Part shown: in pieces, positions 21,732 to 33,374 of the stretch
Numbering within the stretch: the first letter of the stretch is position 1
Layout of the letters: the number at the start of each line of letters is the position of its first letter
Source: a bacterium
Lineage (GTDB): Bacteria > Gemmatimonadota > Glassbacteria > GWA2-58-10
Assembly: GCA_021372515.1 (NCBI GenBank)
Contig: JAJFUG010000197.1
Coordinates: 1 to 41,762 of the forward strand
Reading direction: 5' to 3'
Length of the DNA stretch: 41,762 nucleotides
The notes under the pieces: model-generated
What the model saw: only the letters and a program-made list of their open reading frames with translations
The model's database searches: none
What the model was told of the DNA's origin: nothing
Position numbers and translations under genes: made by a program

Positions 21732-21760
21732 AGCCGCACCCACCACGGGTGCGGCTTTTT
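21732..21760 (+). terminator. Rho-independent terminator
   Basis: AGCCGCACCC (21732-21741), loop ACCAC and GGGTGCGGCT (21747-21756) form a perfect 10-bp stem, followed by TTTT. It closes the block of GT-C and small membrane proteins. Confidence 0.93.
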
Positions 21761-22026: not shown

Positions 22027-22053
22027 TAAAGTTTGAAAGCAGGATGCCGATTT
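22027..22053 (+). promoter_or_regulatory. Sigma-28 (FliA/WhiG-type) promoter P1
   Basis: TAAAGTTT (22027-22034), exactly 11 bases, then GCCGATTT (22046-22053). This matches the flagellar sigma consensus TAAAGTTT-N11-GCCGATAA at all eight -35 bases and at GCCGAT. Predicted start near 22061, about 500 bases upstream of the cargo gene. Confidence 0.75.
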
Positions 22054-22060
22054 AACTCTT

Positions 22061-22330
22061 TAGGCCAAGTATTTGAGTTCAGTCTTGACTCCCGGGGATT
22101 CCTGTGTCCGGGATAGGGGATGAACCGCCCGCTGAAAGCCTCAGGGCTCGAGGCGAGTGGTTGTGACTGTATTGTCCTTCCATGTCGGGCCAGGTGAGGT
22201 GTTTCAGACCGGAGGAAAAGATAAGGTAAAAAATTCCAGAGAAATTGTCCCTAAACATAAAATTCAGACTGCAAGATTCACTTTGTTCGACGCAGAGGCC
22301 GCGGAAACTGTGAGTTTCCAAACTTTTTTT
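22061..22330 (+). ncRNA. Candidate small RNA or long leader between sigma-28 P1 and a hairpin
   Basis: Transcription from P1 would meet the hairpin GGAAACT-GTG-AGTTTCC and a T run at 22303-22330, giving a transcript of about 270 nt with internal inverted repeats (CCCGG/CCGGG near 22090-22118; GCCTC/GAGGC near 22136-22152). No open frame in it looks like a protein. This is inferred only from the order of signals. Confidence 0.3.
22303..22330 (+). terminator. Terminator-like hairpin between the two sigma-28 promoters
   Basis: GGAAACT, loop GTG and AGTTTCC (22303-22319), then AAAC and seven T. The four bases between stem and T run make it less than ideal. The end also forms AAACTTT-TTTT-AAAGTTT, whose right arm is the -35 of P2. 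Confidence 0.4.
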
Positions 22331-22356
22331 AAAGTTTGAAGGGCCTGCGCCGATTT
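22330..22356 (+). promoter_or_regulatory. Sigma-28 (FliA/WhiG-type) promoter P2
   Basis: TAAAGTTT (22330-22337), exactly 11 bases, then GCCGATTT (22349-22356), identical in both conserved boxes to P1 while the spacer differs at most positions. Predicted start near 22364, about 200 bases before the cargo gene. Confidence 0.78.
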
Positions 22357-22392
22357 AAAGAAGTAGTGTATTGCCCCTTTCTACGCTCAAAC

Positions 22393-22409
22393 TTGGCCAG
22401 ATGCATGCA
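22393..22409 (+). promoter_or_regulatory. Weak sigma-54-like site
   Basis: TTGGCCAGATGCATGCA keeps GG-N10-GC with TTGGC at -24 and TGCA at -12, but misses several consensus bases. It is listed mainly because the next genes also have sigma-54-type sites. Confidence 0.3.
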
Positions 22410-22561
22410 AATTTGAACAAAATTGACGGGAACGCTTGAAGGACAATATGTAAAGGAGGGGACATGGTATTCTGCTATGATACGGGGTGACAGAACAGCA
22501 GTGCTAGTTTCCAGGAGGGGAACTAATCTGAAGTAAACGAACTTTTCTCAAGGAGAGAAAA

Positions 22562-25500
22562 ATGAGAGCTTTACTTAAGGTGACCCGAGTAATCACCTTA
22601 CTCACTTTTCTGATCACGCTATCATACGTGCAGTCGTACGCGCAGAATACCGCCCCCGTGCCGACAACCTTTGAAATCCTCAGCCCGGCGGACGGTAACT
22701 TCCCGTTCCAGATCAATACAAGTTATGGAACGGCTACGGGCAAAAACCACCGGATTTTCTACGGTGGTGATTTTGCCTCTTCGTCCGTGGCCAACAGCCC
22801 GTTCCTGGGGTTCACCCTGCCAGCGGCGGCTGTTGCTACCGGCAACCTCACCGACAGCCGTCTGACCCTGGGCGGCACGGCGAGTGATATCGCCGGTGCT
22901 CTCGCAGGTGTCGACATTTTTGCGGTCGCCAACCTTCCCGGCATTGACCCGACCACGAATGTGGATCGTGTCGCCGCTGCTTTCGACGATGACGACGCGG
23001 GCGGAGCCGCCGGGGTTCTGGATTACCATGGCGCCAACGGCTTCATCGCGATCAACGAGGAAGATTCCCTGGTTATCCGTCTGACCGGCTATGTCGATCC
23101 TAATAATACGCTGGTGACGGCTCAGGGTGTTGCAAGTGATTTCTCCGGCGCCAACATGAAGAGCATGTCATATGCTTTCGATCTGGCGCACCCGTCCAAT
23201 GATTCGGCCAACGGCGTCAAATATGGCGTGGTCCCCTCCACTCTGCCGGCCGGCGCCAACTTCAACGGCGGGATTTTCACCTGGGTGCCCAATTTCATTC
23301 AGGGCGACGGCGCCACGGACAACAGCGTCCGCGGCGGGCGTTTCTTTGTCGACGCCAACATTTCCAGCGGCGCTACTGCTTCCGAGACAGCGACCAGAAC
23401 GGCGCTGGACACTGTCAGTGAGGATGCCACCGTTCACCCGACCAATCATCAGTTTATTGGACGTGGCAAGGGTGAGCTGAAAGACAGTCTGTACGTAATC
23501 CTGTTCACGGCCACGGATGACGGAATTCCGTCGAAAGTGGGTACGGATTCCCTGTTCATTATGGTCAACGACTCCATCGCCAACCCCGCGCCCATAATCA
23601 CCAAGCGCGAGGTCATCAACCGTCAGGGCCTGCTGCGCACCTATACCAAGAGCAGTGTGCAGTTCGCCTCTGATTCGCTCCTGCACTACAGCGAGGGTGA
23701 CAGCATCGTCATCACTTACTACGCTGTGGATCAGGACAGCGCGCGCGGTGAAATCAACGACGTCCTAGACTACTCGGTAGTCAATTGGAGCAATTTCATC
23801 CACCGCGCGAGCAGCCATATCGATTCGATGGCTCTGGACACCGTGTCGATAAAGACCCCTGGAACTCCGGGCTCTTTCCGCGTGCGGCTCAAGGTGGCCT
23901 TCAATGTGGGCGACACCGCGACCAGCGATACTCTCGCTCTCGTCGTCAAGGTGCATGATTCGTCAGGCAACGATGTTCCGGACACGATGCTGTTCAGGAT
24001 CGCCAACGTGAATCGCGCTCCGATCTGGGATTCGGACACCAGCAGCAAGCCTACACCTTACCACCTGGTGTACTCGCTCGATCCGGGCGCAGTCGATGCC
24101 GACAGCATCAATGATTTCCTGCCCATCGCTGTGGCGAATGGCCGGACAGATTCGATCACTTTCACCAAGTACATCTATGACCCGGACGTCCTGATCGGTG
24201 ATTCGCTGGGCAACAGCATCAGCTATTCGCAGGTCGGTTCGCCCTCGGGCGCCACGTTCCTGCCCAACGGGCTGATGGTGCTGCTGCTGACGAGCACCGA
24301 CACCACGAGCTATCCGTTCACCATTAAGGGCACGGACAGCTTCACTCCGGACCCGAAGACCGGCAACAAGGTGCTGATCCTGCGGGTGGCCCCGGAACCT
24401 CTGGTCGCCTCGGTGTACCCGTACACGGCCTATCCCGGCCAGAACATCACCCTCTTCGGCAGTGGGTTCGGTCTGTATGACGAGAAGAGCACCACTCCGA
24501 GCAAGGTCACTTTCCGTGCCCGCAACAGCTCCGGTGTGGCTCAGAACCTGGTTGCCACGATCAATTCCTGGGGTCGCGACCGGATCAACCTGACCGTGCC
24601 CGCCGGTGCTCCCGTTACGAAATGGGATATTACCAGAAACATATGGATTCCGGATACGATCCAGGTGAATTCGGCTGTGTTCAATTCGCCGACTTACTAT
24701 CCGTTTGTCATCTCGGAGTATGACAGCACCAGAGTGACCCAGTTCGAGCTGGCCAACCTGAGCTCGACCTCGGTGCGGTTAAAGTGGGAGACCGCTTTCT
24801 CCGGTATCGACAGCGTGGTGGTAGCTACAGAGGAAGATACGCTGCACCTGGACGACGCGGGCGTGACAGTCCCGTTTAATCCTGTGTTCAAGGTCACTAC
24901 GAGCCAGGTCAATTCGGCGGCGCAGGTTTACCACGGTGCGACCACCTCGACGGACCAGCTCCACTATGTCACGATCACCGACCTGGTGCCGAACAAGGTC
25001 TACCGTTTCTTCCTCGGCATGAGCAACGGGTATTTCTTCGGGGATACCTCAGGCCGGGTCAACGGCCCGTACAAGCCGGCCAAGATCAATCGTACAAGCC
25101 CGACCTTCAACAACGGAATCAAGGGCTTCAAGTTCAAGACCCTGCCGACGCAGTCTGCCAGCGGCGAGACGTTCGTGGTCGAGGGTGACGCCTACACCGG
25201 CACCGGTGCGGCGGTGAACTCCATCGTCACGGTGAAGGTGGTGGATTATCAGAATGTGTCCGACACCGCACTGGCCCTGACTTCCATCGTCCAGAGCGAC
25301 AGCTCCTGGTTCGTCAACCTGGGCAACGCCGTGACCGACACGTTCGATGTGCCGGACCGTGTGTTCCATCACAAGCAGGGTGATTACCTCATCGTCACCA
25401 TCGAGGGTGGCGCGGAAATCGGAACCAAGCAGTTCACCACCACGCGTGGCGCGAGCACCCCGCAGCGCATCGATTTCACGGCTACCGGCATCCGTCTGGC

Positions 25501-27130
25501 CCCGGTCGTGAACTATGACATGCGCCTGAAAGTCGGTCTGAACCTGGTCGGTCTGCCGGTGGAGCTGTTCGTCGGCGAGCCTGCCAACGCCGAGGCGCTG
25601 CTCAATCGCATCGCCGGGGGGCTGCCCTCGATCACCCGTTATGTTCCGGCCACCGGCACCCAGGAGACTATCGCCCGGGCCATCACCGGCACCACCGGAC
25701 GCGGGTTCATCGGCGCGGAAAACTTCAATCTGGCCCTGTTCCAGGGTTACTTCGTCAAGACGACCCAGGAACAGTATGTTACGCTCAATGGAAGCCTGAT
25801 CGGCGATTCGCTGGGAGTTCAGACTTTCCAGAATGCGGCTTACTACTGGATCAGCCGCCCGGCGCAGTCTTCCAATCTGTTCTTTGCTTGGAGCGCCAAG
25901 ATCATGCTGGCCAACATCGCCAACCTGAGCGAAATCTTCCGCTACAACGAAGAAGATCAGCATTGGGAGAGCGGCTACATTGAGCCGATCAGCGGTGCTT
26001 TCGGCGGCGATGATTTCCACATCGACGTGAGCGAGGGCTATGTCCTGAACATCACGGCCGCCAGCCAGTGGGACCCGAACACCCCGGCGAGCCTGCTGCT
26101 GGCCAATGCCTCGGCCAAGTTCGACAACCTGACCGAGAACATGCCGTCGCTGACTCTCAACACGGCCAACGCCACCAAGGCGCCTGAGGGCGCTTCGGCG
26201 ACCCTGCGCGGCCTGACCCTCACCGATGTCACCAGCTCGGCCGCCACGCTGTCCTGGCTGACTGACGTGAACGGCAAGGCCCTGGTGCGCTACGGCAAGG
26301 CCGGTGAGAGCCTGAACCAGACCGCCGAGTTCGACAGCAAGTCGCTGGATGGTGCCATGCGGATGGTCCAGTTGCTGAAGCTGGAGGCCGAGACCGAGTA
26401 TAATTACGAGGTCGTGATCAACGGCACCACCTACAACAACAACGGCCAGCCGTTCACCTTCACCTCGGCCAAAGTCGGCACCGGGCTGCCCTACACGGTG
26501 TTCGGCCGCCTGCTGGACGAGAGCGGCAACCCGCTGTCCAAGGCTCTGGTCTATGTCGAGCTGAAGAACAAGGATGAAGTCAGCCTGCCTCTGCTGGCCG
26601 TGACCGATGCGAAGGGTTACTGGGACATCAACCTGGCCAACTTCAAGAAGACGGCCGACGGTGAAGTGTTCCCGTGGAACGTGGGGAACGAGATTCTGGT
26701 GAACGCGATCTTCCAGAACGCCTCCATCCCGTTCCGCACCCTGGTCAGCGGCGCCAGCCCGCAGAACGTGGTCAAGGCCTCCGACCTCGACGCAATGGTT
26801 GCGGCGCAGAAGAAGGAAACCGCTCGGGTCGCTCTGCCCAAGGCGTTCGCCCTGGCGCAGAACTATCCGAACCCCTTCAACCCGTCGACCACCATCTCCT
26901 ACGACATCCCCGACTCGAAGGTCGAGGGTGTGGGTGTCGAGCTGAAGGTCTACAACCTCCGCGGCCAGCTCATCCGCAGCCTGGTCAACGAGGTCAAGCA
27001 GCCCGGCCAGTATGTGATCCAGTGGAACGGCCGGGATGAAAAGGGTGACATGGTCTCCTCCGGTGTCTACTTCTACCGGATCAAGGCCGGTGACTTCACC
27101 ACCACCCGTAAGATGGTCCTGCTGAAGTAA
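22562..27130 (+). CDS. Giant secreted surface protein with type IX sorting tail (paralog 1)
   Basis: This 1522-residue exported protein begins with a signal peptide (residues 1-28, cut after SYAQ). The mature start NTAPVPTTFEI and a beta-rich region to about 600 include a putative-Ig pattern (LPAGANFNGGIFTWVPNF). An IPT/TIG-like domain at about 611-720 (YPGQNITLFGSGFGLYDE) and a fibronectin-III-like domain at 722-820 follow. A carboxypeptidase-regulatory-like domain lies near 870-955 and a region starting GLNLVGLPVELFVGE at 992-1180. A second Fn3 domain at 1213-1305 and a second regulatory-like beta domain at 1306-1410 complete the body. The sorting tail at about 1426-1522 (FALAQNYPNPFNPSTTISYD ... 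GVYFYRIKAG) directs type IX export and surface anchoring. No enzyme motif is seen; an adhesin or structural role is inferred. A clear AAGGAG precedes the ATG. Confidence 0.82.
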   Translation: MRALLKVTRVITLLTFLITLSYVQSYAQNTAPVPTTFEILSPADGNFPFQINTSYGTATGKNHRIFYGGDFASSSVANSPFLGFTLPAAAVATGNLTDSRLTLGGTASDIAGALAGVDIFAVANLPGIDPTTNVDRVAAAFDDDDAGGAAGVLDYHGANGFIAINEEDSLVIRLTGYVDPNNTLVTAQGVASDFSGANMKSMSYAFDLAHPSNDSANGVKYGVVPSTLPAGANFNGGIFTWVPNFIQGDGATDNSVRGGRFFVDANISSGATASETATRTALDTVSEDATVHPTNHQFIGRGKGELKDSLYVILFTATDDGIPSKVGTDSLFIMVNDSIANPAPIITKREVINRQGLLRTYTKSSVQFASDSLLHYSEGDSIVITYYAVDQDSARGEINDVLDYSVVNWSNFIHRASSHIDSMALDTVSIKTPGTPGSFRVRLKVAFNVGDTATSDTLALVVKVHDSSGNDVPDTMLFRIANVNRAPIWDSDTSSKPTPYHLVYSLDPGAVDADSINDFLPIAVANGRTDSITFTKYIYDPDVLIGDSLGNSISYSQVGSPSGATFLPNGLMVLLLTSTDTTSYPFTIKGTDSFTPDPKTGNKVLILRVAPEPLVASVYPYTAYPGQNITLFGSGFGLYDEKSTTPSKVTFRARNSSGVAQNLVATINSWGRDRINLTVPAGAPVTKWDITRNIWIPDTIQVNSAVFNSPTYYPFVISEYDSTRVTQFELANLSSTSVRLKWETAFSGIDSVVVATEEDTLHLDDAGVTVPFNPVFKVTTSQVNSAAQVYHGATTSTDQLHYVTITDLVPNKVYRFFLGMSNGYFFGDTSGRVNGPYKPAKINRTSPTFNNGIKGFKFKTLPTQSASGETFVVEGDAYTGTGAAVNSIVTVKVVDYQNVSDTALALTSIVQSDSSWFVNLGNAVTDTFDVPDRVFHHKQGDYLIVTIEGGAEIGTKQFTTTRGASTPQRIDFTATGIRLAPVVNYDMRLKVGLNLVGLPVELFVGEPANAEALLNRIAGGLPSITRYVPATGTQETIARAITGTTGRGFIGAENFNLALFQGYFVKTTQEQYVTLNGSLIGDSLGVQTFQNAAYYWISRPAQSSNLFFAWSAKIMLANIANLSEIFRYNEEDQHWESGYIEPISGAFGGDDFHIDVSEGYVLNITAASQWDPNTPASLLLANASAKFDNLTENMPSLTLNTANATKAPEGASATLRGLTLTDVTSSAATLSWLTDVNGKALVRYGKAGESLNQTAEFDSKSLDGAMRMVQLLKLEAETEYNYEVVINGTTYNNNGQPFTFTSAKVGTGLPYTVFGRLLDESGNPLSKALVYVELKNKDEVSLPLLAVTDAKGYWDINLANFKKTADGEVFPWNVGNEILVNAIFQNASIPFRTLVSGASPQNVVKASDLDAMVAAQKKETARVALPKAFALAQNYPNPFNPSTTISYDIPDSKVEGVGVELKVYNLRGQLIRSLVNEVKQPGQYVIQWNGRDEKGDMVSSGVYFYRIKAGDFTTTRKMVLLK

Positions 27131-27196: not shown

Positions 27197-27420
27197 GGCT
27201 CCACCCGCGCCCGATCCGCACCCACCCCTCGAAACTTCCCTGTCCGACCTCCCGGGTATTCCTTAAAGCACGGCGCGGAAAATAATGCCCTGTTATTTGC
27301 TTTAAAATTGGCATAGAATGTGGCAAAAATTACCCTCATGCTGTTGCCGGCAGATTGCTCTCTTTTTTCGGTTGTGTCTAAGTGGTTGTAATTGAACAGG
27401 ATGGACACGGCATTCCTCTA
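27197..27420 (+). other. Upstream region of second giant gene with possible activator site
   Basis: No gene is seen. An 8-bp inverted repeat TTAAAGCA (27263-27270) / TGCTTTAA (27298-27305) lies about 120-160 bases upstream of the sigma-54 promoter, the usual distance for an enhancer-binding protein. A second GGCA-rich patch follows (TTGGCATAGAATGTGGCA, about 27308-27325); its GG-GC spacing of 11 is one base too long for a sigma-54 promoter. Confidence 0.35.
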
Positions 27421-27437
27421 TTGGCACGCATGTTGCC
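27421..27437 (+). promoter_or_regulatory. Sigma-54 promoter for the second giant cargo gene
   Basis: TTGGCACGCATGTTGCC matches the sigma-54 consensus YTGGCACG-N4-TTGC at every strongly conserved position, with GG (27423-27424) and GC (27435-27436) ten bases apart. Predicted start near 27448, giving a leader of about 77 bases. Confidence 0.8.
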
Positions 27438-27524
27438 ATACTCTGCACCAGCATAACCCGACTCGAAACTGAAAAATTGTTCCGGTTTAACGGATTAGAC
27501 CACCACTTCTCAAGGAGTGAGCAG

Positions 27525-30500
27525 ATGATGTCCCGTGTCCGTCCTCTCATCGCCTTAACGGCCCTGGCGCTGGTCCTGGTTCCGTTGGGACTGCTGGCGC
27601 AGAACACCGCTCCGGTGCCGACCACTTTCGAAATCATCTCTCCACCGGACGGCAACGCCTCCTCGCTGATCAACACGAATTTCAGCACAAACAAGCGTGT
27701 TTTCTACGGAGGCGATTTCTTTTACCCGACCTCGAACAACAACGTGGGCGGGTTCCTGGGTTTCACCGACATCCTTAACAAGAATACAACCGTGGTCGCT
27801 CGCGGCAACACCAGCGGCAGCCGTCTGACCCTGGGTGGAACCGAGTACGGCTCCGATCCGGATTTTGGAACGAGCGGTGGGGCTTCAGTGGCCAACCTGC
27901 CCGGCTCGCGCATATTGGCGACGAGTTACGATCCGGATGATCTCGGCGGCGGAAGCTACCTGGTCTACACCGGCATGAACGGTTTCATCGCGATCAACGA
28001 GGGTGACACCCTGGAGATCAACATCTCCGGTTTCATCGATCCGAACAACAAGATGGTGAAAGGGGATCAGGCCGCGGATCAGGATTTCACCGGCCGCAAC
28101 CTGAAAAGCCAGAACGGTGACGGCACATCCGGCTACGACGGGGCCAACAACGTCACTTTCACCGCCCTGAACCTTCCCGCCGGCGCCACTTTCGTGGGCA
28201 ACCGCCTGCGCTGGGTCCCCAGTTTCGTGCAGGGTGACGGCGCCACGGACAACAGTATCCACGGCGGACGGTATTTCGTGGATGCCAATATCTCCAACGG
28301 CAGCACAACTTCCGAAACCTCCAGCGCCGCCGGCGACACCAGCAGCAGCGCCGTCAAGGTCGGCGTCGGTGTGGGCGAACTGCGCGACAGCCTCTACGTC
28401 ATCTATTTCAAGGCCACCGACGACAGCAACCAGGGCAACGACACCGCCATCGACAGCCTGTTCATCATGGTCAACGACTCGCTGCCCAACCCCACGCCGC
28501 GCTTTACCAAGCGCACCATGCTGCGCAAGGATTCTCTGGGTGTGAGCCAGACCCGGGCTTTCAACTACCTGGCCGGAGTGGAGGACACCCTGTTCAGCGT
28601 GTTCGAGGGTGACAGCGTGGTGCTCACTTTCTACGCCCAGGACCAGGACAGCCTTCAGGGGGAGAGCAACGACCCCATCGCTTTCGGCCTGCTCTGGAAC
28701 GACAACCTCAAGGGTGTTCCAAAGGGCGGGACGACCACCGGCCCGATAGCCGGGTTCAACCAGTTCATCCACCGTGCCGGCACGGTCGACACCCTGCTGG
28801 CGGACACCGTCTCCAGTCTAACCGGCGGAGCGATCCCCAGTTTCAAGGTCAAGCTTCAGATCCCGTTCAACCTGGCCACCAGCGATGAGAAAGCCGATAC
28901 CCTGGTGGTAATGGTTTCCGACGGCACCACGATCGCGGCCGACACTTTCGCCCTCAAGGTGCGCAACACCAACCGCGCACCCATCTGGGACGGCGACAGC
29001 ACCAGTCTGCCGCCGGACAGCGCCCTGGTGTTCAGCCCCAATCCGGCGGCGGCCAAGCCCGACAGCATCCAGGTCGTGGGGCCTTTCACCCTGAACAACA
29101 ACCAGACCGACAGCACCTATTTCTCGCGCTACGTCTACGATCCCGATTTCCTCTGCGGGGACAGTCTGGGCTGGCCGCTCAGCTTCTCCCACAGCGGGGA
29201 CTATCAGGGCGCATTGAACACCAGCACGGGCCTGAACGTCTTCCGTCCGAGCGTGTCCGACACCCTGACCTACACTTTCAACATCACGGCCACTGACAAC
29301 AACAGCCATGGCGCCAAATCCAGCGCCCAGCAGGTGCGCTTCCGCGTGGCCCCGGCCCCCACAATCTCGCGGGTGACCCCGGCCAAGGGCTCGATCAACC
29401 AGGAGTTCACGATCTTCGGCAGCGGGTTCGGCCTGTTCGACCGCAACGTCGAGGACACGAGCAAGGTGATTTTCTACGCCACCGACCTCAACGGCCGCCG
29501 TCAGAACATAGCGGCCAAGATCATCTCCTGGGCCAAGGACAAGATTGTCGCCTCGGTGCCCTCGGGCGTTCCGGTCTCGCGCCTCGACCGGAGCCTCAGC
29601 TTCCTGGTGCCCGACACGATCAAGGTGATCAGCGCGATCTACGGCGGGTTCGACACCTACCCGTTCACCGTGCTGGTCGATTCGGGCGGATACGAGAACA
29701 TCGAGGTGGTCAATATCTCCGCCACCAGCGCCATGCTCCGCTACCGCACGAATTTCAACGGCGCCGACAGCATCGTGGTGGCGGCCAGCAGCGACACGCT
29801 GGACATCCACAGCGCGGCGTTCACCGATGTGAATAAGTTCAACGGCTTCCCGACATTTGTCGAATACAACTCCGGTCTGTCCGAGATCCGCAGCTCGGTG
29901 ACCGTGTTCAAGGACGAGACCTCGGCGGATGACGGGATCCACGTGATCCAGTTGACCAACCTATCGCCCGGGACGCTCTACCGCTTCTTTATCGGCTCGT
30001 CCAACGGCGTGTTCGCGGCGGACAGCCTGCGCAACATCAACGGGCCCTACCGGCCCAAGAAGGTCGACCGCACCACCGCGGCCAAAAACTCCACCCTGAC
30101 CGCGTTCAAGCTGCGCACGCTGCCGTCCAGCGGAACCAACAGCAGCATGTACACGCTCAAGGGCAAAGTCTACTATTCGGGCGGCGCGGCCGTCAACGCC
30201 ACGGTCCGGCTCAAGGTGGTGGATGCCACCAGCACTGCCGACACCTCGCTGCCACTGGTTGCCACCGTGGGCAGTGACAGCCTCTGGGAACTGAACCTGG
30301 CCAACCTGCGTAAGTCGGACGGCAGCGGGTTCAGCCACGCCCAGGGCGATTACCTCCTGTTGGAGTTCGACGGGGCCGAGAAGGGCTTCGAGCAATACGA
30401 CACCCTGCGCGCCGCCGACGCGGCCAGCCCGATGGCGATCAACAAGGTCAAGCTCGTGCCCTACGTAAGCTACGACCTCGAACTCAAGACCGGCCTGAAC

Positions 30501-32045
30501 CTGATCGGCCTGCCTCTCAACCTGTTCAAGGGTCAGCCCTCCACGGCCCACGCCATTCTGGGCATGATACTGGGCGGCACCCCGGCCCTGTCGCGCTATG
30601 TCAGCTCCACAGGCATGCAGGAGTCGATCACCCGGGCGATCAGCGGCTCCTATGTTGGCGCGGCCGATTTCAACATCGCGATCGAGGATGGCTATTTCAT
30701 CAAGGTGAACTCCGAGAACCACCTTCTGCTCGAGGGACGTGCCTTCACGCGCAACGTGCCGATCATCCAGTTCCCGGCCGCCGGACAGTTTTTCGTCTCG
30801 CGCCCGGCGCAGGATGATATGTTGTTCCGCTCCTGGGACGCCAACAGCGTGTTGAAGGCCGTAACCGGTATACAGGCAATCTATCGTTACGAACCCAGCA
30901 CCCAGGAATACAAGCAGTATTTCAAGGACGGCACGAGCTATCGGGGTGAGAACTTCGGTATCGACGTGGGCCAGGGCTACATCTTCCAGGTCACCGCGGC
31001 CTCGAGCTGGAACCCCAACGTCAGTGGCACCCTGCTGGCTGCGGACAACACTTCGGGCGCCACCAAGACGCCCTCGATCGCCCTCGATCTGGGTAACCGC
31101 TCGGTCGCGGGCAACGCTCCGGGGATCCATGTGTCCAATGTCACCAGCTCGGCGGCCACGTTCACCTGGGCCGCCACGGTCCAGACGCCGGGCGTGCTGC
31201 ACATGACCGATCCGGACGGCAGGGAGACGCTGGTGCAGCCCAGGACCCTGGAGGGTGGGTTCAGCTACGCCCTGGTCAGCGGCCTGAAATCCGGCGTCGA
31301 GTACCGTTACTCGGTGGACGGCCTGAGTGGCCAGAGCGTGGCCCAGACAATGGCTGGCACTCTGACCACGGCCCAGTTGGGCGCCGGGCTTAACCTCTAC
31401 ACTCTGTACGGCCGCCTGACCGACAGCCAGGACCAGCCCCTGGCCGGGATGCTGGTGTTCCTCAAGCTGACCGGGGCCGAGAGCGGCGAACAGACCGGGA
31501 CGATCTGCGCCGCGACCGACCGGGACGGCATGTGGACGCTCAACCTGGCAAACCTGAAGGAAAGTGGCAGCGGCATACCCTACAAGTGGTCGGCCGGCGA
31601 CAAGATAGACCTGACCGTGCTGGGACTGGGCGTGAGCCGCAGCTTCTCCTCAACGGTCAAACCGGAAAGCCCGCACAATTTCGCCCTGGACCTGCAGGCC
31701 GGTTCGGAGAAGACCGCAACGGACGCCAGCAGCGGGAATGTTCCGGCTGTGCTGCCCAAGTCTTTCAGCCTGGCCCAGAACTCGCCCAACCCGTTCAACC
31801 CCTCGACCACCATTCGCTACGCGGTGCCCGAGGGCGCGGGACTGGTCTCGGTGCGGCTGGATGTGTTCAACCTGCGCGGCCAGATGATCCGCAACCTGGT
31901 GACTGCTCTGCGTGAGCCGGGCGAGTACCAGGTGGAATGGGACGGCACCGATTCAGCCGGGCGCCGCGCCTCCAGCGGGGTCTACTTCTACCGCCTGACC
32001 ACACCCTCGTTCCGGGCCATGCGCAAGATGATCATCCTCAAGTGA
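27525..32045 (+). CDS. Giant secreted surface protein with type IX sorting tail (paralog 2)
   Basis: This 1506-residue protein is a tandem paralog of the preceding one. After a signal peptide (residues 1-26, cut after LLAQ) the mature protein begins with the same NTAPVPTTFEI as paralog 1. It repeats the same domain order: a beta region with LPAGATFVGNRLRWVPSFVQ and QGDGATDNS, an IPT/TIG-like domain near 610 (INQEFTIFGSGFGLFD), an Fn3-like domain, a regulatory-like beta domain and the region starting GLNLIGLPLNLFKG. A second Fn3 domain near 1195, another beta domain and the sorting tail at about 1410-1506 (LAQNSPNPFNPSTTIRY ... GVYFYRLTTP) follow. ATG 27525, with AAGGAG just upstream, is preferred to the longer frame from 27477, because the signal peptide then begins correctly. 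The two genes even share the leader string TTCTCAAGGAG before their starts. No enzyme motif seen. Confidence 0.82.
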   Translation: MMSRVRPLIALTALALVLVPLGLLAQNTAPVPTTFEIISPPDGNASSLINTNFSTNKRVFYGGDFFYPTSNNNVGGFLGFTDILNKNTTVVARGNTSGSRLTLGGTEYGSDPDFGTSGGASVANLPGSRILATSYDPDDLGGGSYLVYTGMNGFIAINEGDTLEINISGFIDPNNKMVKGDQAADQDFTGRNLKSQNGDGTSGYDGANNVTFTALNLPAGATFVGNRLRWVPSFVQGDGATDNSIHGGRYFVDANISNGSTTSETSSAAGDTSSSAVKVGVGVGELRDSLYVIYFKATDDSNQGNDTAIDSLFIMVNDSLPNPTPRFTKRTMLRKDSLGVSQTRAFNYLAGVEDTLFSVFEGDSVVLTFYAQDQDSLQGESNDPIAFGLLWNDNLKGVPKGGTTTGPIAGFNQFIHRAGTVDTLLADTVSSLTGGAIPSFKVKLQIPFNLATSDEKADTLVVMVSDGTTIAADTFALKVRNTNRAPIWDGDSTSLPPDSALVFSPNPAAAKPDSIQVVGPFTLNNNQTDSTYFSRYVYDPDFLCGDSLGWPLSFSHSGDYQGALNTSTGLNVFRPSVSDTLTYTFNITATDNNSHGAKSSAQQVRFRVAPAPTISRVTPAKGSINQEFTIFGSGFGLFDRNVEDTSKVIFYATDLNGRRQNIAAKIISWAKDKIVASVPSGVPVSRLDRSLSFLVPDTIKVISAIYGGFDTYPFTVLVDSGGYENIEVVNISATSAMLRYRTNFNGADSIVVAASSDTLDIHSAAFTDVNKFNGFPTFVEYNSGLSEIRSSVTVFKDETSADDGIHVIQLTNLSPGTLYRFFIGSSNGVFAADSLRNINGPYRPKKVDRTTAAKNSTLTAFKLRTLPSSGTNSSMYTLKGKVYYSGGAAVNATVRLKVVDATSTADTSLPLVATVGSDSLWELNLANLRKSDGSGFSHAQGDYLLLEFDGAEKGFEQYDTLRAADAASPMAINKVKLVPYVSYDLELKTGLNLIGLPLNLFKGQPSTAHAILGMILGGTPALSRYVSSTGMQESITRAISGSYVGAADFNIAIEDGYFIKVNSENHLLLEGRAFTRNVPIIQFPAAGQFFVSRPAQDDMLFRSWDANSVLKAVTGIQAIYRYEPSTQEYKQYFKDGTSYRGENFGIDVGQGYIFQVTAASSWNPNVSGTLLAADNTSGATKTPSIALDLGNRSVAGNAPGIHVSNVTSSAATFTWAATVQTPGVLHMTDPDGRETLVQPRTLEGGFSYALVSGLKSGVEYRYSVDGLSGQSVAQTMAGTLTTAQLGAGLNLYTLYGRLTDSQDQPLAGMLVFLKLTGAESGEQTGTICAATDRDGMWTLNLANLKESGSGIPYKWSAGDKIDLTVLGLGVSRSFSSTVKPESPHNFALDLQAGSEKTATDASSGNVPAVLPKSFSLAQNSPNPFNPSTTIRYAVPEGAGLVSVRLDVFNLRGQMIRNLVTALREPGEYQVEWDGTDSAGRRASSGVYFYRLTTPSFRAMRKMIILK

Positions 32046-32125: not shown

Positions 32126-32375
32126 CAGGGAGAACCTTGCTCAGGCTTTGGCATTCGGGGCTGGCAGGGGAGATTTGTTTTTCCCGGCGGCCGGAAAAAT
32201 TTGCCAGCCATTCCCGGGCGGACGGCCTAAACAAGAAAAAGCCGAGATGCGTTATGCCGGCGCAATGGGTTGCATAGCCCTATGTTTTCGTTTTCGGGGC
32301 TGGATGTAAGAGGGCTACTGCTGTGATTCCGCCGTGGCGGAAAAGGAATGTTCCGCGGCCGAAAGGGAGCAAGCT

Positions 32376-32392
32376 GTGGTATGGATATTGCA
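32376..32392 (+). promoter_or_regulatory. Probable sigma-54 promoter for the dockerin operon
   Basis: GTGGTATGGATATTGCA has GG (32378-32379) and GC (32390-32391) exactly ten bases apart and keeps TGG-A-G at -24 and TTGCA at -12. Predicted start near 32403, with a leader of about 55 bases. Confidence 0.5.
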
Positions 32393-32456
32393 AAGACCAG
32401 GATATGAAAGATGCAAACCAGCCACCCTTTTCGATAAAGCTTTGAAAGGAATCAAT

Positions 32457-33374
32457 ATGCGCCCTTCATCCACCATCCTGACTCTGGCTCTGGCCGCCCT
32501 GATTTTCCATGTGACGCCCTCGGTTGCCGCCGAGATCAAAATGACCGGTCTGGCCTGCACCGACCTGTCCATCACCAGCGCCCGCGTTTCCTGGCTCACC
32601 GACGCCCAGACCCTCGACAACCGGGTCGAGGTGCGGGAAAAGGGCTCCGATTCGCTGCTGGTTTTCACGGACGAATACGCGAGCGAGACCTACACGCACC
32701 TGATCGCCCTGATCGGCCTCAAGGTGGGCACGGAATACGAGTACCGTCTGCGCTCCGACAGCACACTCTGGGACAACAGCGACCGCTGGTACTCGTTCAA
32801 GACTTTCCTGGAGACTGTGGGCGGCGGGACACCCTGGACGGCCCATGGCAGCCTGTTCGATGGGCAGGGCGAGCCGCTGGACCGCTGCCTGGTGCGTCTG
32901 CAGGTGAGACGGGCCAACGGTGACCGTTCGGTAGTGAAGACCGTGCTGAATAAAAGGGGCGGGACCGGTGAGGTGGCCGGGCAGTGGGACGTGGACATGA
33001 CGACCGTGCGGGAGGAACTCACCGGCTATGCGTTCAATCCCGGCGCCGGCGACCGGCTGTTCATCGAGTACTTTCCCAACTACTGGACCAACGACACGGA
33101 CAGCTCGGTGGTGCTCCAGGGAAGCGCCAGCTTTTTCATTCCGGCCCACACGGTTCAGGTCTACGATCCGAACCTGGGGATGCGCGGCGACCTGGACAAC
33201 AACGGAAAAGTGAACGTTTTCGACCTTCTCGATATCCTTAAAGTTCTGGGCGGCTCGAAGCCGGTCGCCGGTGACCAGCGCCTGGCCTTTGCGGCGGACG
33301 TGGACGGCAACGGCCGGTACGATGTCTTCGACCTGCTGGCCCTTTTACGGTTGATGAGCGGCAGTGCAGCCTGA
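32457..33374 (+). CDS. Secreted Fn3-like protein with C-terminal dockerin
   Basis: This 305-residue exported protein has a signal peptide (residues 1-23, ending PSVAA). A fibronectin-III-like domain at about 28-125 follows (LACTDLSITSARVSWLTDAQ ... GTEYEYRLRSD), then a beta domain at about 130-235. A type I dockerin fills the last 65 residues, with two calcium-binding loops each followed by a helix: GDLDNNGKVNVFDLLDILKV and ADVDGNGRYDVFDLLALLRL. Dockerins plug into cohesin domains of other proteins. No cohesin or type IX tail is seen in this protein, so it is probably Sec-exported and docked onto a partner encoded elsewhere. ATG 32457 follows AAAGGA; the longer frame from 32334 runs through the promoter region and lacks a signal sequence. 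The next gene begins 32 bases downstream. Confidence 0.8.
   Translation: MRPSSTILTLALAALIFHVTPSVAAEIKMTGLACTDLSITSARVSWLTDAQTLDNRVEVREKGSDSLLVFTDEYASETYTHLIALIGLKVGTEYEYRLRSDSTLWDNSDRWYSFKTFLETVGGGTPWTAHGSLFDGQGEPLDRCLVRLQVRRANGDRSVVKTVLNKRGGTGEVAGQWDVDMTTVREELTGYAFNPGAGDRLFIEYFPNYWTNDTDSSVVLQGSASFFIPAHTVQVYDPNLGMRGDLDNNGKVNVFDLLDILKVLGGSKPVAGDQRLAFAADVDGNGRYDVFDLLALLRLMSGSAA

Follow-up and report, generated by a model that had tools for sequence, protein, structure and literature searches.

Introduction

In the flagellin-style control exerted by sigma-28 together with CsrA and FliW, the known targets are proteins that pass through the flagellum. In Campylobacter jejuni, flaA is transcribed from a sigma-28 promoter, and its leader forms two ANGGA stem-loops, the second covering the ribosome binding site (PMC4894983). 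This gene is a proven CsrA target, repressed by CsrA and relieved by FliW, and RpoN-dependent genes of Campylobacter such as flaB are likewise CsrA targets (PMC4894983). The Bacillus subtilis flagellin gene hag carries two CsrA sites, one of them over the Shine-Dalgarno sequence, and FliW acts as the antagonist (PMC7652899). In Bdellovibrio, FliA is a global factor that accounts for 92 of 140 attack-phase promoters (PMC3627812). Our search of the literature found no link of type IX cargo to either sigma-28 or CsrA.

Here we describe a 41,762-nt stretch of DNA from uncultured Glassbacteria, hereafter the window, for which an earlier note had proposed two sigma-28 promoters in front of a giant type IX cargo gene. 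This gene (cargo 1) and its paralogous neighbor (cargo 2) are best read as two type IX cargo genes under the control usual for late flagellar genes: sigma-28 or sigma-54 would direct their transcription, and CsrA and FliW would gate their translation.

Results

Two sigma-28-type sites lie upstream of cargo 1

The motif TAAAGTTT-N11-GCCGATTT is found twice on the forward strand of the window, at 22027–22053 (distal) and 22330–22356 (proximal). As the earlier note had stated, the two boxes are identical and separated by an 11-base spacer, both matches being exact. Both sites conform to the sigma-28 pattern TAAA(GTTT)-N11-GCCGAT(AA) with its 11-base spacer, and the RNA starts would be expected at approximately 22060–22064 and 22363–22367, respectively. 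The surroundings are non-coding, again as claimed: the upstream gene ends at about 21702, the next good frame begins at 22562, and a hairpin resembling an intrinsic terminator, AGCCGCACCC-ACCAC-GGGTGCGGCTTTTT (about 21732–21760 on the forward strand, read from the sequence), closes the upstream gene. The argument that chance would hardly produce such a pair was also borne out, since only 0.09 matches are expected per window even when up to three mismatches are allowed, two exact ones were found, and no shuffled sequence contained two. The spacers were said to differ, and they have just GAA and chance matches in common; the sites are therefore not a recent duplication.

A search of the whole genome (4.87 Mb, 222 contigs) for the 14 core bases TAAAGTTT-N11-GCCGAT gave three matches, and none for the reversed control. 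The third occurrence, at C19:5830, has no convincing gene downstream before the contig end. A further element, GGTAAAAAATTCC (22225–22237, forward strand), is present in 5/5 orthologs at a constant 103–105 bp upstream of the proximal promoter. Two other promoter candidates were rejected: a sigma-70 TATAAT 3' of the proximal site, which is present in genomes G003 and G005 only, and a sigma-54 site within the cargo 1 leader, TTGGCC-N-TGCA at 22392, whose -12 element is not kept by the orthologs. Rfam searches of the window and key loci returned no family at gathering score, and the gap gave only a chance snoRNA match.

FliA and further sites of the sigma-28 type

A FliA/WhiG homolog, the presence of which the earlier note had proposed to check, is encoded in this genome (258.7 bits against a cut-off of 189.6). 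The gene is located on contig C103 (C103:21073), after fliP-fliQ-fliR-flhB-flhA-flhF. FliA also scored above the cut-off in six relatives, so that it was detected in 7/7 genomes of the group examined. The earlier note had further envisaged that flagellar genes and other type IX cargo might share the motif. This holds for the flagellin genes, which are preceded by such sites in this genome and its relatives, but no sigma-28 site turned up in front of any further type IX cargo gene.

This genome contains five Flagellin_N genes, comprising four tandem flagellins on contig C208 and a FlgL-like protein on contig C26. In G000, G001, G003 and G005, the flagellin B gene has TAAACTTT-N11-GCCGATAT about 610–720 nt upstream; the flagellin contig of G004 carries this site as well. 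In five genomes, flagellin A genes have TAAAG-type boxes and a degenerate -10 element, located about 250 nt upstream of the ATG. With looser patterns, TAAA-N15-GCCGAT gave 13 sites in this genome versus 8 for the control, indicating that the motif is not broadly enriched, and TAAA-N15-GCCGATWT gave 26 sites over six genomes versus 8 for the control; the sigma-28 regulon is therefore real but small. Flagellins were found in G004 and cargo 1 was not, and the reverse was seen in G002, both assemblies being incomplete.

We considered whether the boxes might be bound by another regulator or by a different factor of the sigma-70 family, given that several further sigma-70 family genes match the FliA/WhiG profile below its cut-off. 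Against this, boxes and spacing are those of the FliA consensus and the flagellins are preceded by the same sites, which makes such an assignment highly improbable. Judged by their sequence, both sites are very likely true sigma-28 promoters.

Three additional observations were made at other loci. Conserved sigma-28-type sites lie 72–91 nt upstream of a small, basic, roughly 60-aa protein with the pattern MA[IV][ST]EIP..AYRVQ.LDKDQAS...GRI[ND]L (L041, G000 C50:7780; L134, G005 C72:17461; L138, G003 C47:20295), which is a candidate new member of the flagellar regulon. Sites of this type are also found upstream of a 71-aa zinc-ribbon-like protein (L107, G002 C502; L129, G003 C13; L132, G005 C60); strong GC-rich hairpins follow about 110–170 nt downstream, and these sites may possibly drive a small RNA. 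The flagellin B leader (L047, G000 C208:5053–5727) is conserved, is 600–700 nt in length and has a large hairpin, GGCTTTTGGAG...CTCCAAAAGCC, for which Rfam returned no match.

The double site is conserved in cargo 1 orthologs

The search for the exact core motif covered 41 genomes, namely this one and 40 relatives, and yielded 10 places, with zero control matches. Seven of the 10 precede cargo 1 orthologs; G000, G002 and G003 each have two of them and G005 has one. Readable upstream DNA was available for five cargo 1 orthologs, and every one of these has the double site. The fifth, L101, comes from a MAG deposited under Deltaproteobacteria, and one named record among the orthologs belongs to a Candidatus Glassbacteria MAG. 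In all five, the distal site is 525–634 nt and the proximal site 222–249 nt upstream of the cargo 1 ATG. The non-coding DNA upstream of the orthologs displayed pairwise identities of 49%–66%. Among the five orthologs, 13 of 14 box columns per site are invariant versus 1 of 11 spacer columns, the overall background being 20%. Invariant boxes around a variable spacer are the pattern left by a promoter whose spacer is free to change. Taken with the presence of FliA and the flagellin sites, the double site in the orthologs of five genomes supports the proposed sigma-28 control of the cargo gene.

Cargo 1 encodes a protein with a type IX sorting domain

Cargo 1 (22562–27130, forward strand) encodes a protein of 1522 aa, annotated with Pfam and NCBIfam, with orthologs at 54%–57%. 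It contains a signal peptide, fibronectin-type and purple-acid-phosphatase-N-type domains, and a C-terminal T9SS type A sorting domain; the N terminus, as read from the sequence, is hydrophobic and ends in YAQ. The type IX assignment of the earlier note is supported by a TIGR04183 score of 38.3 bits versus a curated cut-off of 23, although "giant" is a generous word for 1522 aa. The translocon component SprA_N was detected above the cut-off in this genome and three relatives, and was not found in G001 and G004. Cargo 1 had no match to the flagellin N-terminal domain. AlphaFold models of its two halves were poor (mean pLDDT 35 and 39) because relatives are lacking, and a search for a similar solved structure gave none.

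The cargo 1 leader RNA and the distal 5' end

The leader RNA is a probable second control layer that the earlier note did not contain. Downstream of the proximal promoter, it contains an upstream open reading frame of eight codons, MVFCYDTG (22464–22490, forward strand), with a strong Shine-Dalgarno sequence at 22452–22459. An 8-codon frame with its Shine-Dalgarno sequence is present in 5/5 orthologs, as MVFCYDTG, MPLYNDTG, MLIYYDSR (twice) and MLICYNLE. Two CsrA-site-like hairpins follow on the forward strand, each in 5/5 orthologs. Hairpin 1, TAGTTTCC-AGGAG-GGGAACTA (22505–22525), exposes GGA in its loop and includes a pair that is A-U in G003 and G-U in the other orthologs; at 8 bp, its stem exceeds the length that CsrA preferred in selection experiments (PMC7652899). 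Hairpin 2, TTCTC-AAGGA-GAGAA (22545–22559), contains the cargo 1 Shine-Dalgarno sequence. Compared with the ANGGAN hexaloop, loop 1 reads AGGAG or CAGGAGG, and the AAGGA of loop 2 agrees with it. From this structure we infer that the leader may be bound by CsrA. In the first codons of cargo 1, the inverted repeat AAGGTGA-N9-TCACCTT (22577–22599, forward strand) has both arms invariant in 5/5 orthologs.

A long-range pairing is also predicted. The sequence GGCCAAGT (22063–22070, forward strand) is the expected 5' end of the distal RNA; in 5/5 orthologs it occurs at a distance of 35–36 nt from the distal -35 box. Its complementary partner, ACTTGGCC (22391–22398, forward strand), is found about 60–70 nt into the region of the proximal promoter. 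All five orthologs retain the complementarity, with G-U changes on one of the two sides, and in 4/5 the minimum-energy fold predicted for the long transcript includes the helix. Most simply read, this would give the distal mRNA a paired, protected 5' end.

The same complementarity, with its G-U changes, would suit a separate small RNA that starts at the distal promoter, ends before the proximal one and tunes the cargo mRNA by pairing its 5' GGCCAAGT with ACTTGGCC. This possibility counts as a rival on account of a terminator-like hairpin found only in the window, GGAAACT-GTG-AGTTTCC-AAAC-T7 (22303–22330, forward strand), immediately upstream of the proximal promoter. However, this hairpin is absent from the four other orthologs tested and the RNA body between the two sites is not conserved, so we find a separate small RNA quite unlikely and retain the protected 5' end of one long mRNA.

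Cargo 2 has a sigma-54-like promoter and a similar leader

The next gene, cargo 2 (27525–32045, forward strand), encodes a paralog of about 1506 aa that is 42% identical to cargo 1 and has a T9SS sorting domain. It is preceded by a sigma-54-like promoter, TGGCACGCATGTTGC (27422–27436, forward strand), present in 4/4 orthologs at 103–121 nt before the ATG, and RpoN is encoded. The leader contains hairpin 1, GGTTTA-ACGGAT-TAGACC with an ANGGAN loop (27484–27501), and a Shine-Dalgarno hairpin, CTCAAGGAGTGAG (27509–27521), both on the forward strand and both in 4/4 orthologs with changed stem letters. The ANGGAN hexaloop is present in cargo 2 and in the flagellins, and hairpin 1 of cargo 2 is out of register with that of cargo 1.

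A second copy of the element at 22225, GGCAAAAATTACC, lies at 27322–27334 (forward strand), and GG[CT]AAAAANTNCC has only these two matches in the window. GGYAAAAATTMCC or a similar element is found about 100 bp upstream of the sigma-54-like promoter of cargo 2. The shared element GGTAAAAAATTCC / GGCAAAAATTACC, about 100 bp before the promoter of each cargo gene, is a possible activator site. A gene for a dockerin-type domain protein (window 32334–33374) follows both cargo genes.

The two-hairpin layout is restricted to flagellin and cargo genes

Flagellin leaders have a GGA-loop hairpin about 20–45 nt before the start, frequently with an ANGGAN loop, and a second hairpin over the Shine-Dalgarno sequence, such as CCATC-AAGGAG-GATGG. 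All gene starts in the fetched loci were scanned for this layout, with both hairpins required. It was found in 5/17 flagellins and 5/7 cargo genes (10/24 together) versus 0/364 other starts (Fisher P ~ 1e-13), a P value that is only descriptive because the thresholds were set after the leaders had been seen and the positives are three orthologous groups whose members are not independent. The contrast between flagellin or cargo starts and other gene starts is still sharp.

CsrA (PF02599) was detected in 6/6 genomes tested, most of which have a second copy; in this genome a csrA copy is also present on contig C217. On contig C26, csrA lies between flgK and flgL, and fliW (PF02623) comes after flgL. 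The FlgL-like protein adjoining csrA (L141, 2008–5181) is 1057 aa, much longer than the usual FlgL.

Sigma-28 promoters could also be combined with hairpins that do no more than shield the mRNA and expose its ribosome binding site, as would suit a secreted product expressed at a high level, with CsrA uninvolved. Features compatible with this are a Shine-Dalgarno sequence in a loop, which can aid efficient translation, a cargo 1 loop 1 without the first A of ANGGAN, and the predicted pairing of the distal 5' end, a typical stabilizing feature. Yet only flagellin and cargo genes have the layout (0/364 other starts), cargo 2 retains full ANGGAN loops despite changed stems, and csrA and fliW adjoin flgL. 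We therefore judge simple mRNA protection unlikely and favor a leader gated by CsrA and FliW.

Discussion

The locus resembles Campylobacter flaA in having a sigma-28-type promoter, two GGA-loop hairpins with the second over the ribosome binding site, and encoded CsrA and FliW. The likeness extends to a sister gene with a sigma-54-type promoter, flaB there and cargo 2 here. The product here is a type IX-exported surface protein, whereas that of flaA is a flagellin; cargo 1 has two promoters versus one, leaders of about 200 and 500 nt versus 45 nt, and an upstream open reading frame and a long-range helix in a leader that would be bound by CsrA. B. subtilis hag, a single flagellin gene with a different product and export route, likewise has a pair of sites in its leader, one covering the Shine-Dalgarno sequence. 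In Bdellovibrio, genes for non-flagellar surface proteins stand behind FliA-type promoters as well, but FliA is global there whereas sigma-28 sites are few here, and no CsrA-type leader is described (PMC3627812). Bdellovibrio already shows that FliA can control surface proteins outside the flagellum (PMC3627812), so the principle is not new. With Bacteroidota type IX cargo, cargo 1 shares the signal peptide and type A sorting domain, and SprA is encoded. The new element is that type IX cargo genes are wired in two layers, as flagellin genes are.

Our explanation as a whole, sigma-28 promoters plus a CsrA/FliW-gated leader acting on type IX cargo, is probably correct. A FliA/WhiG-type sigma factor would drive cargo 1 in the manner of late flagellar genes, with transcription starting near 22061 and 22364. 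The RNA would carry the 8-codon upstream frame and the two GGA-loop hairpins, with the ribosome binding site in the second. CsrA bound to both loops would block translation, and FliW, freed upon flagellin export, would remove CsrA from the cargo 1 leader. Cargo 2 would be subject to the same translational gate behind its sigma-54-type promoter. This scheme suggests that the cargo 1 surface protein is made only while the flagellum is being finished. A broader and more tentative proposal, to which we give somewhat less than an even chance, is that sigma-28 release and the FliW/CsrA checkpoint both gate type IX cargo, so that the pair is displayed only as flagella are completed, perhaps coating the flagellum or acting as its partner.

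These results would extend the CsrA/FliW control of flagellin to a branch for which we found no earlier report, and the same two-layer wiring on a pair of type IX cargo genes is kept across genera of this uncultured lineage. If the scheme is true, a single checkpoint would join two unrelated export machines, and the cargo surface proteins would be predicted to work with motility.
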